Positions 8,551 through 44,839 of a stretch of 44,839 nucleotides of DNA are shown here, in pieces. The notes under the pieces are model-generated. The model ran no database searches and was not told where the DNA came from. It saw only the letters and a program-made list of their open reading frames with translations. Made by a program: the position numbers and the translations under genes. The stretch comes from Chromatiales bacterium (GTDB lineage: Bacteria > Pseudomonadota > Gammaproteobacteria > Chromatiales > Chromatiaceae). The DNA lies in the NCBI GenBank assembly GCA_030145485.1, contig JAQYVP010000246.1:1-44839 (forward strand), in the 5' to 3' direction. The number at the start of each line of letters is the position of its first letter. Position 1 is the stretch's first letter.

Positions 8551-9518
8551 GGGACTGCGATCTTCTCCAGCAGACGGTCAATGACGTGATCTGTGGTGAT
8601 GCCTTCGGCTTCCGCCTCGTAGTTGAGCAGCAGGCGGTGACGTAATACATCATGCGCGATTGCCTGCACATCTTCCGGTCCGACATAGTCACGTCCGGCG
8701 AGCCAGGCGCGGGCGCGTGCGCAGCGATCCAGCGCCAGGGTGGCACGCGGGCTGGCGCCCCAGGAGATCCATCCCGCTAGATCTTCGCCGTAGGTTTCAG
8801 GTTTGCGAGTCGCCAGCACCAGTTGGATCAGGTAATCCTCGATCGGCTGCGAGAGGTAGGTTTCGATCACCTGCTGGCGGGCGGCACGGATATCATCGCG
8901 GGTAACGACGTCTCTTTGTGCAGGCACCTCGTCAGCAAGCTGTTCGCGCACTTCTCCGCGCACCAGATGCAGTATCTGCTTCTCATGCTCTCTTTCGGGG
9001 TAATCAACAGTCACATGCATGAGGAAGCGGTCAAGCTGCGCTTCGGGCAGCGGGTAGGTTCCCTCCTGCTCGATCGGATTCTGCGTGGCCATGACGAGGA
9101 ATGGATCCGGCAGCTTGCGTGTGACTCCGGCGACAGTCACCTGTCTCTCGGCCATCGCCTCGAGCAGCGCCGACTGCACCTTTGCCGGCGCGCGATTGAT
9201 CTCATCCGCGAGGATCAGATTGTGAAACAGCGGCCCCGGTTGAAAGTGGAATTTCCCCTCCTGCTGGGAGAAGATATCCGTGCCGGTGATGTCCGCCGGC
9301 ATCAGGTCCGGCGTAAATTGAATGCGCTGATAGTCGCTCTCCAGGTGTTGGCCAAGGACATGGATGGCGCGAGTCTTGGCAAGGCCGGGAGCGCCCTCGA
9401 CCAGTAAATGGCCATCCGCCAGCAGAGCAATGAGCAGTCGGTTGACAAGTGCCGGCTGGCCGATGACCTGTTGCTGAAGCCACTGTTCGAGTTTCTGGAA
9501 AGTGCTGATTTGAGACAT
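8547..9518 (-). CDS. MoxR-family AAA+ ATPase
   Basis: A 323-residue AAA+ ATPase of the MoxR type, first gene of the six-gene operon. Walker A is GAPGLAKT, Walker B with downstream helix is LADEINRAPAKVQSALLEAM, and sensor-1 is MATQNP. MoxR proteins act as chaperones that remodel or load VWA-domain partners, which are encoded directly downstream (BatA, BatB). There is little room for a promoter other than the roughly 135-base gap to yaaA, which is divergent, so the operon promoter should lie at about 9520-9600. Confidence 0.93.
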   Translation of the reverse strand: MSQISTFQKLEQWLQQQVIGQPALVNRLLIALLADGHLLVEGAPGLAKTRAIHVLGQHLESDYQRIQFTPDLMPADITGTDIFSQQEGKFHFQPGPLFHNLILADEINRAPAKVQSALLEAMAERQVTVAGVTRKLPDPFLVMATQNPIEQEGTYPLPEAQLDRFLMHVTVDYPEREHEKQILHLVRGEVREQLADEVPAQRDVVTRDDIRAARQQVIETYLSQPIEDYLIQLVLATRKPETYGEDLAGWISWGASPRATLALDRCARARAWLAGRDYVGPEDVQAIAHDVLRHRLLLNYEAEAEGITTDHVIDRLLEKIAVP

Positions 9519-31948: not shown

Positions 31949-32023
31949 GATTTGATACCTTGCTGGTTTATGGAATAGGCGTTGTGACTTTGGGTGGAAG
32001 ATCATTGATGGGCGGAACACTTA

Positions 32024-32180
32024 GTCGTTGTCCAAAAATAACTTACCGATCCTGCTTGCCCTGTTGTCCCTCTTCTGCGTAGCAGCAAGAGTTACATAAC
32101 GCTGCTATGCGCCCCTTGCTGCGCCTTGAAGATGAACAACATTGCTGCGCGATATCGGGAAGTTATTTATGGACAACTCC
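32024..32180 (+). mobile_element. 157-bp palindromic MITE, copy 1
   Basis: Non-coding element with terminal inverted repeats of about 27 bp: left GTCGTTGTCCAAAAATAACT, right (complement) GGAGTTGTCCATAAATAACT. The interior is itself an imperfect palindrome, so the whole element can fold into one long hairpin. TTA at 32021-32023 and TTA at 32181-32183 flank it as a target-site duplication. Copies 2 and 3 are at 36924-37080 (inverted) and 44700 onward. No transposase gene is present in the window. Confidence 0.88.
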
Positions 32181-32212
32181 TTATTACATCCTACACTAAT
32201 ACTCGGGTATAC

Positions 32213-32235: not shown

Positions 32236-32342
32236 TCCGTATAGGGTGCGTGTCCATAAGCTGTGTAGGACATTGCAATCTAATCGCACATGATGCAAGG
32301 TAGTCTTCATGATGCATCTCTTTGACTCTTCATTCAAACCTT

Positions 32343-33431
32343 ATGACTGACAAAATCATAGCAGCTTCTCTTTTGTGCGTACTCGCGACGATTTCTTCTC
32401 ATCATGCTCTCTTTGCAGGGGAAACACCACAAGGCCAATCCCAAATGCGAGTGGACAAGCATATGCGCAACGTCACCCAACTCACGGTCGAAGGAGACAA
32501 TGGCGAAGCCTATTTCAGTGCGGATGGAAAACACTTGATCTATCAGTCGAATCGCGGCGGATATGCCTGTGACAAGGTCTGGACGATGCGTATCGACGGG
32601 TCGCAAAAGCGCATGCTCAGTCCTGATCACGGCGCGCATACCTGCGCATTTTTCTATCCTGACAACAGCGCCGTGGTGTTTGCTTCCACCAGTCATCTCG
32701 AAGGTGATTGTCCACAGAAGCAGGTGTTCCCCGAGGGGATACGTTATGCATGGCCTCTCTACCCCTATGATATCTACAAGGCAAATGCCGATGGCAGCGG
32801 ACTCAAAAAACTGACGCAGAATCCCGGCTATGATGCCGAACCGATCATCTCTATGGATGGCCAAAAGATCGTCTTCGGCTCCCAGCGTGATAATGATTTC
32901 GATATCTACATGATGGATGCAGACGGTGACAATGTCGTACGTCTGACCCACACAGAGGGTTATGACGGCGGACCCTGGTTCTCTCCGGGCGGAAAGCAGA
33001 TCGTGTGGCGCGCCTGGCATCCGCAAACACAGGCGGAGAGGAAGCAGTGGCGCACCAACATGCGGGATAACTACATACAGTCTACGCCGCTGGATCTGTG
33101 GGTGATGGATGTCGACGGTTCCAATAAAAAGCGCCTGACTGATAATGGCGCGACCAACTGGGCGCCCTCGTGGCATCCGGACGGCAAGCGCATCATCTTC
33201 TCCAGCAACATGGACGACTGGCGCGAGGATATCAAGCGCTATGGCCACAACTTTGAACTCTACCTGATTAACAGCGACGGCAGTGGACTGGAGCGAATTA
33301 CCTTCAATGATGGCTTCGATAGCTTTCCGATGTTCTCCGCAGATGGAAAAAAACTGGTTTTCGGCGCCAACAGGAATCCGCAAAAGCCCCGGGCAACGGA
33401 TATCTTTATCGCGGATTGGGATGAGCAATGA
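32343..33431 (+). CDS. secreted TolB-like PD40 beta-propeller protein
   Basis: A 362-residue exported protein: a signal peptide (IIAASLLCVLATISSHHALF) and about six PD40 propeller repeats with recurrent FSADGKHLIYQSNR, MDGQKIVFGSQRDNDFDIYM, SPGGKQIVWR, PDGKRIIFSSN and FSADGKKLVFGANR. This resembles the TolB C-terminal propeller but lacks the TolB N-terminal domain. ATG at 32343 is preferred to an upstream TTG. Its stop overlaps the peptidase start (ATGA), so the pair is translationally coupled and may form a complex or share substrates. Confidence 0.85.
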   Translation: MTDKIIAASLLCVLATISSHHALFAGETPQGQSQMRVDKHMRNVTQLTVEGDNGEAYFSADGKHLIYQSNRGGYACDKVWTMRIDGSQKRMLSPDHGAHTCAFFYPDNSAVVFASTSHLEGDCPQKQVFPEGIRYAWPLYPYDIYKANADGSGLKKLTQNPGYDAEPIISMDGQKIVFGSQRDNDFDIYMMDADGDNVVRLTHTEGYDGGPWFSPGGKQIVWRAWHPQTQAERKQWRTNMRDNYIQSTPLDLWVMDVDGSNKKRLTDNGATNWAPSWHPDGKRIIFSSNMDDWREDIKRYGHNFELYLINSDGSGLERITFNDGFDSFPMFSADGKKLVFGANRNPQKPRATDIFIADWDEQ

Positions 33432-36400
33432 GGCGTGCTCTTACCCAACTGCTGTTTCTCGCTGTGTTGCTGTTCCCCGTCGTTGCGGCGGCGTCGCAGA
33501 AAACTATCCACCATGCGTTGACAATCGAGCTCTTTCCAGATCGTCAGCGTCTTCATGTGCGAGACGAAATTACGCTTGGCGCCGGATCTCCCCGGCAACT
33601 GACCTTTGCACTGCACCCAGGTCTCAAACCCCGCTCGCTGACGCAAGGTGCTGTCATTGAGCCTATCGGTACAGCCAATAATGTGCTTCAACAGCAGTTC
33701 AGGCTGCAGCTCGCTGAAGGAGTGGATGCTTTTATGATGGAGTACGAGGGAGTCATCCATTATCCATTGGAAGCCTATGGCAGGGAGCAGGCGCGTAGTT
33801 TCAGGAGCAGTCCCGGGCTGATCGATTCCGAGGGCGTCTTTCTGGCGGGCGGCACATTCTGGTATGCGCAATTTGATATTGACGATCGCATGACTTTCAA
33901 ACTGGAGGTCACCCTGCCCGCAGAATGGAGCAGCGTCAGCCAGGGTCAGCGGGTTCGCCATGACCGGGGAGAACAGAGCGCAACTGACACATGGGCCTCG
34001 AACACCCCGCAGGAGGAAATCTACCTGGTCGCGGCGCCATTTGTCGAGTACAGCCGCGACAGTGGTGAAGTTATTGCCCAGGTATTCCTGCGCCAGCAGG
34101 ATGAGAAACTTGCCAACGACTACCTGGATGCAACCGAGCGTTACCTCGGCATGTATGAGCAACTGCTGGGCCCTTATCCCTACAGCAAGTTCGCCCTGGT
34201 AGAGAACTTCTGGGAAACCGGTTTCGGCATGCCCTCCTTCACACTGCTTGGATCGAAGGTGATCCGTCTGCCATTCATTCTGAACTCCTCCTATCCCCAC
34301 GAAATTCTGCACAATTGGTGGGGCAACGGCGTCTATGTGGATTTCTCAGGCGGCAACTGGAGCGAGGGGCTGACTGCCTATCTGGCGGATCACCTGATCA
34401 AGCAGCAGCAGGGAAGAGGGGTGAGCTATCGCCAGCAGAGCTTGCAGAAATATACCGACTATGCTGCAGAGGAGCGTGATTTCCCGCTCAACGAGTTTCT
34501 CGGCCGCCACAGCTCTGCTTCCGAGGCGGTCGGCTACGGCAAGACATTGATGCTGTTTCACATGCTGCGGCGGCAGCTTGGCGATCAGGCCTTCATCGAA
34601 GGGCTGCAGCAGTTTTACCGCAAGTGGCAGTTTCAGAAAGCCTCCTTTGACGATCTGCAAGCCAGTGTCGAGAAGGTTTCTGGTCAGTCGCTAGGCGCTT
34701 TTTTTGAGCAGTGGGTGGATCGAAGCGGTGCACCGGCACTGAAACTGACAAACAGTGAGGTTAGCAAAAGAGGTGATCTGTACCATCTTACATTCCAGCT
34801 GTCTCAGACCCAGCCCGGCAAGGCTTACCAGTTGCAGGTTCCGCTGGCCATTACTCTGGAAGGAGAAAAGCAGGCTCACCAGAGCATCGTTGAGATGACA
34901 CAGAAGCAGCAGCAGTTTGAGATCACGCTTTCCGCGCGGCCTCTGCGTATCGATATCGATCCTGAATTTGATCTTTTCCGCAAGCTGGCGCTGGAGGAGA
35001 CGCCGCCGGCTTTTACGCAACTGTTTGGCAGCAACAGTATGCTGGTGGTGTTGCCGGGCGCAGCCGCGCCTGTCATGAAAAAGGCATGGCGACGCTTTGC
35101 CGAGGATCTTGCCAGGATGGGACCGGAGAGCGTGACGCTCGCCTGGGACGATGAACTGGAGACTCTGCCGGAGGAGCGGGCGATCGTTGTGCTGGGTTGG
35201 GAAAACCGCCATACTGAGATGGTTGCCACCGCGCTGTCTGTCAATGGTGTGCAGTTCAAAGCGGACAGCCTCACCATCGGGAAGACGAGTATCCCCCGCA
35301 GCGGGCATGCGCTGGCTTTGGTGACGCGGCATCAGCAGGGCGGACAGCACTCGCGTGCTTTTATTGCCGCCGACCTGCCCGAATCACTGCCCGGTCTCGG
35401 CCGCAAGCTGCCTCATTACCACAAATACAGCTACCTGGCATTTTCCGGTGGAGAGCCGGAAATTCAGCTCAAAGGCCGCTGGCAGGTGGAGCGTTCTCCC
35501 CTGACGGCGGTGTTTGTAGAGAACACCGAACCTGGTCAGTTGGCAAGGCGAGAGGCGCTCATTGATCCCCCGCATGAATTCGATAGCAAACGTATGCTGG
35601 AGACTGTCCACTTTCTTAGCGGTGGTGCTTTGCAGGGGCGAGGCTTTGGTGAGCCGGGCCTGGATCAGGCTGCAGAATATATCTCCAGGGCATTTCGCGA
35701 GGCGGGGCTGCAGCCGGCGGGAGATCTTCCCGGCAGTTACTTTCAGAGTTGGGATGAGAAGGGCGGCCAACCGGAGCGTAGAAGCCAGCTGAAAAATGTC
35801 GTCGCGGTCATCCCCTCCGCCGAGCCGGAACGCCGTCATGAAAGCATTGTGATCGGCGCACACTATGACCATCTCGGCCGCGGCTGGCCCGATGTTCGGG
35901 ACGGCAACCGGGGCGAGATTCATCCTGGCGCTGACGACAACGCCAGCGGCGTCGCGGTGCTGCTGGAGTTGGCGCGAGTTCTTGGCAAGGATTTCAAGCC
36001 AGACCGCAACATCGTACTTGCGGCTTTCAGCGGCGAAGAGGCGGGCCGCAGGGGCTCGAAACACTACATCGAACGACTCAAGGAAAATCCGGCGGACAAC
36101 ATCTTCGCCATGATCAATCTGGATACGGTGGGTCGCCTGGGCGGCAACAAGCTGCTGGTGCTGGGCGCGAATTCAGCGAGTGAGTGGCCGCATATCTTCA
36201 GGGGCATCGGTTATGTCACCGGCATTCCTATCGCCATGGTTGCCGAACAACTCGACTCCAGCGACCAGGTCAGCTTTCACGAGGCCGGGATTCCTGCGGT
36301 GCAGCTCTTTTCCGGGGTGAATCCGGACTACCACCGTGCCACTGATACAGTGGAAAAAATCGATGCCGAAGGTATGGTGAAAGTCGCCACGGTGACCAAA

Positions 36401-36820
36401 GAGGCGGTGGAGTATCTGGCAGGCAGTGAAGAGCCGATGACAGCCACACTGCCTGACATCTCAATCAGCAATCAGCAATCCGGCAAACAGCGCAAAGTGA
36501 CTCTGGGCACTGTTCCCGATTTCAGCTACCAGGGCGAAGGCTATCGACTGCATGGCGTCACATCCGGTTCACCCGCGATGGCTGCGGGATTGATACAGGG
36601 AGATGTCATTATTCAATTGAATGACACAGCTGTGTATGGCCTCAGAAATCTCTCCAATATCCTGAAAACGCTGCAGCCGGGTGAGATCGTCACGATTCAC
36701 TACCGGCGTCAGGGGGAGATCGTGACAACGCAGGTCACTCTCAGAGCAAAAAACGCGCAGTCAACCCGGAAACAGGAGAGCGCTGGGGAAAACCGGAAGT
36801 CGGGGCTACCATCTCCCTGA
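33428..36820 (+). CDS. double metallopeptidase: M1-like, M28 and PDZ domains
   Basis: A 1130-residue exported protein with a signal peptide (LLFLAVLLFPVVAAAS). Residues 25-480 are an M1-type peptidase unit with zinc motif HEILH (291-295) and NWSEGLTAY carrying the third ligand (E313); the GAMEN exopeptidase motif of classic M1 aminopeptidases is replaced by ENFWETGFGMPS. Residues 480-720 are a mixed linker region. About 740-990 is an M28 domain with AHYDHLG, GADDNASG, FSGEEAGRRG, NLDTVG and HEAGIPAVQLF, all five zinc ligands. A PDZ domain (about 1015-1110) follows. The final residues may be read-out into a remnant of another gene. Confidence 0.87.
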   Translation: MRRALTQLLFLAVLLFPVVAAASQKTIHHALTIELFPDRQRLHVRDEITLGAGSPRQLTFALHPGLKPRSLTQGAVIEPIGTANNVLQQQFRLQLAEGVDAFMMEYEGVIHYPLEAYGREQARSFRSSPGLIDSEGVFLAGGTFWYAQFDIDDRMTFKLEVTLPAEWSSVSQGQRVRHDRGEQSATDTWASNTPQEEIYLVAAPFVEYSRDSGEVIAQVFLRQQDEKLANDYLDATERYLGMYEQLLGPYPYSKFALVENFWETGFGMPSFTLLGSKVIRLPFILNSSYPHEILHNWWGNGVYVDFSGGNWSEGLTAYLADHLIKQQQGRGVSYRQQSLQKYTDYAAEERDFPLNEFLGRHSSASEAVGYGKTLMLFHMLRRQLGDQAFIEGLQQFYRKWQFQKASFDDLQASVEKVSGQSLGAFFEQWVDRSGAPALKLTNSEVSKRGDLYHLTFQLSQTQPGKAYQLQVPLAITLEGEKQAHQSIVEMTQKQQQFEITLSARPLRIDIDPEFDLFRKLALEETPPAFTQLFGSNSMLVVLPGAAAPVMKKAWRRFAEDLARMGPESVTLAWDDELETLPEERAIVVLGWENRHTEMVATALSVNGVQFKADSLTIGKTSIPRSGHALALVTRHQQGGQHSRAFIAADLPESLPGLGRKLPHYHKYSYLAFSGGEPEIQLKGRWQVERSPLTAVFVENTEPGQLARREALIDPPHEFDSKRMLETVHFLSGGALQGRGFGEPGLDQAAEYISRAFREAGLQPAGDLPGSYFQSWDEKGGQPERRSQLKNVVAVIPSAEPERRHESIVIGAHYDHLGRGWPDVRDGNRGEIHPGADDNASGVAVLLELARVLGKDFKPDRNIVLAAFSGEEAGRRGSKHYIERLKENPADNIFAMINLDTVGRLGGNKLLVLGANSASEWPHIFRGIGYVTGIPIAMVAEQLDSSDQVSFHEAGIPAVQLFSGVNPDYHRATDTVEKIDAEGMVKVATVTKEAVEYLAGSEEPMTATLPDISISNQQSGKQRKVTLGTVPDFSYQGEGYRLHGVTSGSPAMAAGLIQGDVIIQLNDTAVYGLRNLSNILKTLQPGEIVTIHYRRQGEIVTTQVTLRAKNAQSTRKQESAGENRKSGLPSP

Positions 36821-36921
36821 AAGAGCTGCAAACCGGGCCAGCCCTGGATGACAAACGCATCAACGCACTTGTCGCTTTTCTATAGATGCTCACCGACAAG
36901 CGTTATGAGCACATAATTCCT
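36760..36921 (+). pseudogene. 3' remnant of a di-haem cytochrome c peroxidase/MauG-like gene
   Basis: In a frame different from the M28 gene, the bases encode NPETGERWGKPEVGATISL, ALDDKRINALVAFL, an in-frame TAG (36883-36885), then MLTDKRYEH. LVAFLxxLTDKRYEH is a common C-terminal ending of MauG/cytochrome c peroxidase-like proteins. The remnant has a stop codon inside, no haem motif survives, and MITE copy 2 is inserted at its end. Its first bases overlap the end of the peptidase gene. Confidence 0.55.
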
Positions 36922-36923
36922 TA

Positions 36924-37080
36924 GGAGTTGTCTAGAAATAACTTACCGATATCGCGCAGCAATGTTGTTCATCTTCAAGGCGCAGCAAGGGGCGCATAGC
37001 AGCGTTATGTAACTCTTGCTGGAACGCCGAAGACGGACAACAGGGCAAGCAGGATCGGGAAGTTATTTTTAGACAACGAC
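36924..37080 (-). mobile_element. 157-bp palindromic MITE, copy 2
   Basis: Same element as 32024-32180 in the opposite orientation and of identical length: left end GGAGTTGTCTAGAAATAACT, right end GTTATTTTTAGACAACGAC. TTA at 36921-36923 and TTA at 37081-37083 are the target-site duplication. It is inserted just after the peroxidase remnant. Confidence 0.88.
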
Positions 37081-37129
37081 TTAGTTGTCCGGGAACAGGC
37101 GCCGAGATTACGCTCTTTGTTTGGGGTTC

Positions 37130-37537
37130 TCATTTTTTTGTGGGCTGTGAAGTACAGGGATATGCATTTTGCAGCGCATCGAGAGTAACCATCGCAGCAG
37201 ATTTATCCAGGTCGACGCTCTTGCGACCGGCATATCGCATGAACGCTTCTGCAAATTGCCGCGATGATGTGTTATCAGGCGCACAAACCACGAAAGCCCG
37301 GGTAGATGAAGCCTTTCGCTGAAACAGGCGTATGGCTTCTTCGACGCCACTGACAAAGCCGTGACAATAGCGCTTGCGTTGCCGCCCGGTTCTTGTCAAC
37401 GAGCTGGATGCACACGCCTGCAGAAGTTCCCTGGCTGTCATCTGTTGAGGGAAGTACCCTTCTGAAATGTCATCTTCGGCTTGCGTTGACAACGGCAGCA
37501 GCACTAACAAAACAGTCAAGATAAAGCTTCGGTTCAT
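37130..37537 (-). CDS. Rap1a/Tai-like secreted protein
   Basis: A 135-residue protein with a signal peptide (FILTVLLVLLPLSTQA) and the pattern of the Rap1a/Tai family: four cysteines in the arrangement LLQACASS, RYCHGFVSGVEEA, VVCAPD and YPC, with helices between. Family members with known function are periplasmic immunity proteins against type VI secretion amidase effectors, but many homologues are orphans. No effector gene is adjacent, so the immunity role is uncertain. GGAG-like bases precede the ATG. Confidence 0.65.
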   Translation of the reverse strand: MNRSFILTVLLVLLPLSTQAEDDISEGYFPQQMTARELLQACASSSLTRTGRQRKRYCHGFVSGVEEAIRLFQRKASSTRAFVVCAPDNTSSRQFAEAFMRYAGRKSVDLDKSAAMVTLDALQNAYPCTSQPTKK

Positions 37538-44668: not shown

Positions 44669-44699
44669 GATTAGTGAGGCCAAGTCTCAGACTGACTAA

Positions 44700-44839
44700 G
44701 TCGTTGTCCAAAAATAACTTCCCGATCCTGCTTGCCCTGTTGTCCGTCTTCTGCGTTCCAGCAAGAGTTTCATAACGCTGCTATGCGCCCCTTGCTGCGT
44801 CTTGAATACGAACAACATTGCTGCGCGATATCGGTAAGT
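44700..44839 (+). mobile_element. 157-bp palindromic MITE, copy 3 (cut by window end)
   Basis: Begins GTCGTTGTCCAAAAATAACT like copy 1 and runs to the last base of the window, stopping inside the right terminal repeat (ATCGGTAAGT). The base triplet before it is TAA, within CTAA. It lies 31 bases upstream of the greB start on the opposite side. Confidence 0.85.

Follow-up and report, generated by a model that had tools for sequence, protein, structure and literature searches.

What would a bacterium gain from two zinc peptidases of different families placed in one exported chain, and with which partners would they act? The question is raised by a gene in the window, the whole 44,839-nucleotide stretch of DNA that was analysed (Chromatiales bacterium, contig JAQYVP010000246.1). 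Positions 33428–36820 of its forward strand encode 1130 amino acids in one unbroken frame (open reading frame list and translation), in which an M1-like unit is followed by a middle domain, an M28 peptidase and a PDZ domain; the M1, M28 and PDZ parts each score above the Pfam cut-off (Table 1). An earlier note on this DNA had read an M1, an M28 and a PDZ unit in one secreted chain. The Pfam matches and relatives with the identical order bear out the first point, and a hydrophobic, signal-like N-terminus bears out the export signal. The AlphaFold2 model of the fusion, made from 72 aligned sequences, reached a mean pLDDT of 88.9 and a pTM of 0.82, and the top fold matches of its front were M1 aminopeptidases. 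Read from its sequence, the product is probably an exported two-site peptidase.

Table 1. Features of the PD40–fusion locus and its surroundings (positions in the window)
Feature	Position	Strand	Basis
Exported PD40 propeller protein of 369 aa with TolB-like blades	32322..33431	+	five PD40 stretches, 1.4e-37
ATGA shared by the PD40 stop and the fusion start	33428..33431	+	sequence, open reading frame list
Signal-like segment, residues 1–22	33428..33493	+	hydrophobic N-terminus; model helix 2–21
N-terminal beta domain of M1 unit, residues 27–222 (border approximate)	33506..34093	+	model secondary structure
M1-like catalytic domain, residues 223–432 (border approximate)	34094..34723	+	PF01433; top fold matches are M1 aminopeptidases
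GFGMPSFT replacing GAMEN, residues 265–272	34220..34243	+	near-invariant in 73 rows; alignment to solved M1 enzyme
HEILH zinc motif, residues 291–295	34298..34312	+	invariant in 73/73
Beta-sandwich after M1 catalytic domain, residues 433–511 (border approximate)	34724..34960	+	model secondary structure; weak, sub-cut-off DUF3458 match
BcsB-like flavodoxin-fold domain, residues 512–712	34961..35563	+	model of domain alone; BcsB fold match
M28 peptidase domain, residues 715–1001	35570..36430	+	PF04389; BSAP fold match
PDZ domain, residues about 1022–1108	36491..36751	+	PF13180
C-terminal tail and stop	36752..36820	+	absent from relatives; out-of-frame reading of gene remnant; pLDDT <50 from 1110
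MITE-like copy	36920–37085	+	
MITE-like copy	32013–32181	-	
MITE-like copy, at window end	44695–44839	-	

One scan of a species-level genome collection found at least 80 relatives of the fusion, with best-segment identities of 43–77%, and nearly all of those listed match from the start of the M1 unit through the end of the PDZ domain. Ten named phyla are represented among them: Pseudomonadota (33), Nitrospirota (13), Planctomycetota (12), Myxococcota (7), Acidobacteriota (4), Calditrichota (2), and Bacteroidota, Thermodesulfobacteriota, Bdellovibrionota and Cloacimonadota with a single listed fusion each; five have no phylum assignment. Since nearly all carriers are metagenome bins, the single cases could be misbinned. 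The fusion family is conserved, present in many bacterial phyla and apparently uncharacterised. Most relatives within the window's own family are M1-only, stand-alone genes of ∼700 amino acids. Loci that were cut, split or partial (L035, L053, L062, L065, L086, L091, L093, L094 and L098) were left out of the alignments. The other 71 loci and the window formed alignment A2, to which L005 was added for the 73-row alignment of the window and the listed full-length loci (A1), and from which L088 was removed for A4.

The gene that overlaps the start of the fusion encodes a PD40 propeller protein whose nearest solved relatives are Atu1656 and TolB. It has PD40 blades in common with TolB, but an identification as TolB was rejected, its score of 149.7 bits lying far under the TolB equivalog cut-off of 343.15. 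A PD40 gene was found near 44 of the 80 listed fusion loci, in four arrangements: on the same strand upstream (18) or downstream (15), and on the opposite strand downstream (8) or upstream (3). This count includes three distant PD40 genes (30% identity; loci L074, L077 and L101). In these three the distant protein is encoded divergently upstream of the fusion, possibly after a separate recruitment. At 22 of the 80 PD40 is missing though both flanks reach at least 1.5 kb, and a further 14 have a short flank. At M1-only loci, no PD40 gene scored above 100 bits (0 of 37). In five proteins of other genomes PD40 and M28–PDZ share a single chain (by Pfam for two of them); PD40 comes first in four and last in one, and the PD40 tree, a quick one with long-branch warnings, separates the two chain orders. 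That the same parts were joined in opposite orders is good evidence for joint action of PD40 and M28–PDZ. Such single chains are rare, and a wider search for them (P0003; 249 phylum genomes) gave one match, a PD40 protein without M28 in frame. The coupling to a propeller protein that the earlier note had claimed is upheld by the linkage and by the one-chain proteins; on this comparison of sequences, we take the PD40 propeller to be a real partner of the fusion.

A partner absent from the earlier note, a ChaN–PDZ protein, showed the strongest co-occurrence of all. A ChaN gene (PF04187) adjoins 30 of 37 M1-only genes, on the opposite strand in 27 cases and on the same strand in three, and the four of these neighbours scanned with Pfam all contain a PDZ domain. 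Seven M1-only loci have no such neighbour; L151, L152, L153 and L158 are those nearest to the fusion clade and belong to genomes with ChaN elsewhere, and the absence at L176 is uninformative because the gene lies at a contig start. Among 185 genomes of the class, ChaN was found in 28 of the 29 with the M1 family and in 22 of the 156 without it (Fisher p 1.9e-18, in a test blind to kinship); at 190 bits, a threshold picked after the data were seen, the values were 25 of 29 and 2 of 156. One fusion genome of the class (G176) had no ChaN at the threshold used. ChaN lies near 8 of the 80 listed fusion loci, with ChaN, fusion and PD40 in a row at L167, and the window's own genome carries one unlinked ChaN–PDZ gene (ChaN 218.1 bits against a cut-off of 27.7; PDZ_2 46 bits). 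In 54 ChaN rows, E136 and H138 of a G-E-x-H motif, and E166, which follows H138 by 28 residues, were each kept in 53, and the more distant H318 in all 54; together they correspond to a TIKI-type 2His/2Glu set. The TIKI endopeptidase VvRRSP requires a 2His/2Glu set, and its E-x-H and 28-residue spacing are those of ChaN (PMC6254334). The likeness suggests that ChaN–PDZ may be an endopeptidase. A literature search on ChaN and Tiki found no link to M1 or M28. Two other kinds of peptidase gene lie beside some loci and were excluded from the parts of the system: a U32 gene adjoins ChaN in eight M1–ChaN loci (L103, L108, L109, L110, L111, L115, L118 and L179), and an M16 (insulinase-type) gene is near the fusion in 4 of the 80 listed loci (L046, L061, L068 and L073).

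We judge it an even call, from sequences and gene neighbourhoods, that the fusion is an exported double metallopeptidase trimming envelope peptides together with PD40 and ChaN–PDZ partners; the 'periplasmic peptide-processing machine' of the earlier note fits this genomic context. Counting against this reading are the 22 well-flanked fusion loci without PD40, the small number of fusion loci near ChaN, the genome G176 without ChaN, the haem-binding label of ChaN and the rarity of PD40–M28 single chains. A plainer explanation, possible but doubtful, is nutrient scavenging by a single chain with two exopeptidases that digest peptides, in which case the links to PD40 and ChaN would reflect shared regulation or habitat. 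The M1 and M28 families are mostly exopeptidases, and this, like the 22 well-flanked loci without PD40, agrees with scavenging; it sits poorly with single chains that join PD40 and M28–PDZ in either order, and with a ChaN presence that tracks the M1 family even when the genes are unlinked. It is quite unlikely that, in lithotrophs rich in cytochromes, the system serves haem or cytochrome turnover, with ChaN–PDZ binding haem and the peptidases breaking down envelope cytochromes or peptides that carry haem. Pfam labels the ChaN family haem-binding, and several carriers are anammox Planctomycetota and Nitrospirota, but no haem-related gene recurs beside the loci and the catalytic-type residues of ChaN are conserved.

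If the fusion is a double peptidase with partners, both its M1-like head and its M28 domain are expected to be active. The Peptidase_M1 match (PF01433) covers residues 291–429 (3e-13; 50.3 bits against a cut-off of 27.7), and the site is formed by HEILH, Glu313 and Tyr370, with an intervening stretch of 17 residues from the second His to the Glu, where classical M1 enzymes have 18. H291, E292, H295, E313 and Y370 are invariant in all 73 aligned fusion rows, and the zinc ligands, catalytic Glu and Tyr370 are likewise invariant in 38 of 38 M1-only forms. The M1 half does lack GAMEN, as the earlier note had said: in the alignment to the closest solved M1 enzyme its position is occupied by GxGMPSFT, in the fusions and in the stand-alone relatives, with Pro269 kept in 72 of 73 and 37 of 38, respectively. 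Classical M1 enzymes have a second Glu that binds the N-terminus; residue 135, presumably near its site, is a Glu in no more than 41 of the 73 rows. The fusion scores far below the cut-offs of the NCBIfam aminopeptidase N models. Since GxGMPSFT stands in its place, the GAMEN (GxMEN) that defines a classical M1 aminopeptidase is missing and the fusion was not filed as one. It shares with these enzymes (aminopeptidase N; PF01433) the fold, the HExxH and Glu zinc site and the catalytic Tyr, and differs in having the BcsB-like domain, M28 and PDZ in place of their C-terminal helical domain. The loss of GAMEN suggests, at the level of sequence, an M1 half set apart from classical aminopeptidases. 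It could also, with the HExxH–E spacing one residue shorter, mark the M1 half as a dead scaffold beside a working M28 half, but the unbroken conservation of zinc ligands, catalytic Glu and Tyr370 in fusions and M1-only forms makes this very improbable.

The M28 unit is complete, as had been claimed. Peptidase_M28 (PF04389) matches residues 790–991 over positions 1–190 of the 193 of the profile (2.5e-41; 142 bits against a cut-off of 21.3), and the two-zinc ligands and the catalytic Glu are conserved; every one of the 73 rows has D814, D837, E870, E871, D899 and H969, and H812 is kept in 72. The two-zinc ligand set and the fold are those of Bacillus BSAP and the Aeromonas aminopeptidase (M28 region of the model against 6hc6_A: Z 33.4, rmsd 2.2, 261 aligned; the structural-alignment rows for the full-length model concern mostly this domain), from which the fusion differs in having an M1 unit in front of its M28 and a PDZ domain after it. 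This PDZ domain was matched by PDZ_2 (PF13180) at residues 1043–1105 (1.4e-09; 38.6 bits against a cut-off of 27). The middle domain is absent from the earlier note's account. Modelled alone (pLDDT 89.7), it resembles the flavodoxin-like domain of BcsB (6yg8_B: Z 10.3, rmsd 3.3, 156 aligned, 14% sequence identity), a likeness of predicted fold alone. An S-layer anchoring domain and the N-terminal domains of GH84, GH67 and GH115 glycosidases matched its fold more weakly, and the glycosidase matches indicate that the fold is widespread. Because stand-alone M1 proteins match to about residue 700, the middle domain belongs to the M1 unit. The last ∼20 residues of the fusion (1110–1130) are missing in relatives and are odd because they read, out of frame, a gene remnant at 36742–36915 (+) that has an in-frame stop. 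At the sister locus L023 the remnant is kept as a separate frame of 82 amino acids (9042–9290) after the fusion stop; we take it to resemble the C-terminus of a di-haem cytochrome c peroxidase.

Thirty of the 185 class genomes gave a match: eight fusions (the window's included), 20 M1-only genes, a probable fusion truncated where its contigs end (G066) and one M28–PDZ part only (G206); up to four candidates were scored per genome, and absences may be misses. In the genus to which the window belongs, G001 carries the fusion, while G003 and G005 carry an M1-only gene that is distinct. A quick tree was built from 86 fused sequences and 38 M1-only ones, and three label changes were needed; the fused sequences form one clade (SH-aLRT 94) with two nested exceptions, L150 (M1-only) and L065 (a fusion locus split into two frames). 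Several other loci are truncated at contig ends. No M28 remnant was found at E 1e-3 near the M1-only loci L150, L151, L152, L153, L158 and L163, which neighbour the fusion clade in the tree. These sequences indicate that the fusion most likely arose once and then spread, and transfer between phyla is likely. A frameshift or assembly join of two genes, the outcome that the earlier note had named as fatal to its reading, was not found and can be practically discounted: a stand-alone M1 of ∼700 amino acids is the usual form in the family, but at least 80 relatives from many assemblies are nearly all full-length fusions and, save the two nested exceptions, form one clade.

Two copies of a MITE-like element in opposite orientation flank the PD40–fusion operon. 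The element is ∼165 bp long and forms one long hairpin (-85.3 kcal/mol), and 40 places in the window's own genome align to it at 89% identity or more. A scan for promoters and terminators returned sites no more frequent than in shuffles. A Rap1a immunity family protein (PF18602, 4.4e-17) is encoded at 37130–37537 (-).

In tricorn, a propeller, a PDZ domain and a peptidase work with M1 partners. The fusion system follows the same scheme as tricorn and its interacting factors, as an analogy only, and tricorn factor F3 is among the PDB matches; the fusion system differs in having no S41 peptidase, in its other peptidase families and in being exported. Descent from tricorn was rejected, no S41 match being found by Pfam in the fusion or in the PD40 protein. 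By analogy, we infer a tricorn-like system for degrading envelope peptides that would not be homologous to tricorn. The broader proposal, which we regard as tentative and on balance unlikely, is that of a convergent tricorn-like machine in many phyla, built of unrelated parts (a TIKI-type ChaN–PDZ endopeptidase, a GAMEN-less M1 enzyme, an M28–PDZ exopeptidase and a PD40 gate) that lineages would keep apart or fuse in different ways. In the system as proposed for the fusion, the unlinked ChaN–PDZ may supply endopeptidase cuts, the products of which the M1-like and M28 domains would trim, most likely in succession. The PDZ domain would capture peptide or protein ends, the BcsB-like domain would space the two peptidases or help assembly, and the translationally coupled PD40 propeller would be a docking or gating partner.

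Proteins with several peptidase units of different families are on record in MEROPS (PMC5753285), so that compound peptidases are already a known kind. A survey of PDZ proteins lists the M28+PDZ ('ZEP') and ChaN+PDZ families as uncharacterised; the portion of that survey covered here mentions neither an M1 unit in front nor a link between the two families (PMC6411480). In the literature searched here by architecture, motif and partners, no description was found of an M1–M28(–PDZ) chain or of the four-part association of M1, M28–PDZ, PD40 and ChaN–PDZ.

The proposal would link four protein groups without a known joint function (GAMEN-less M1, M28–PDZ, small PD40 and ChaN–PDZ) into one testable system, which many bacteria would possess, anammox Planctomycetota and Nitrospira among them. 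It would give a concrete alternative role, that of a protease, to ChaN–PDZ proteins usually labelled haem-binding, and the M1 half would offer a natural test of an M1 enzyme that does without its N-terminus-binding motif.
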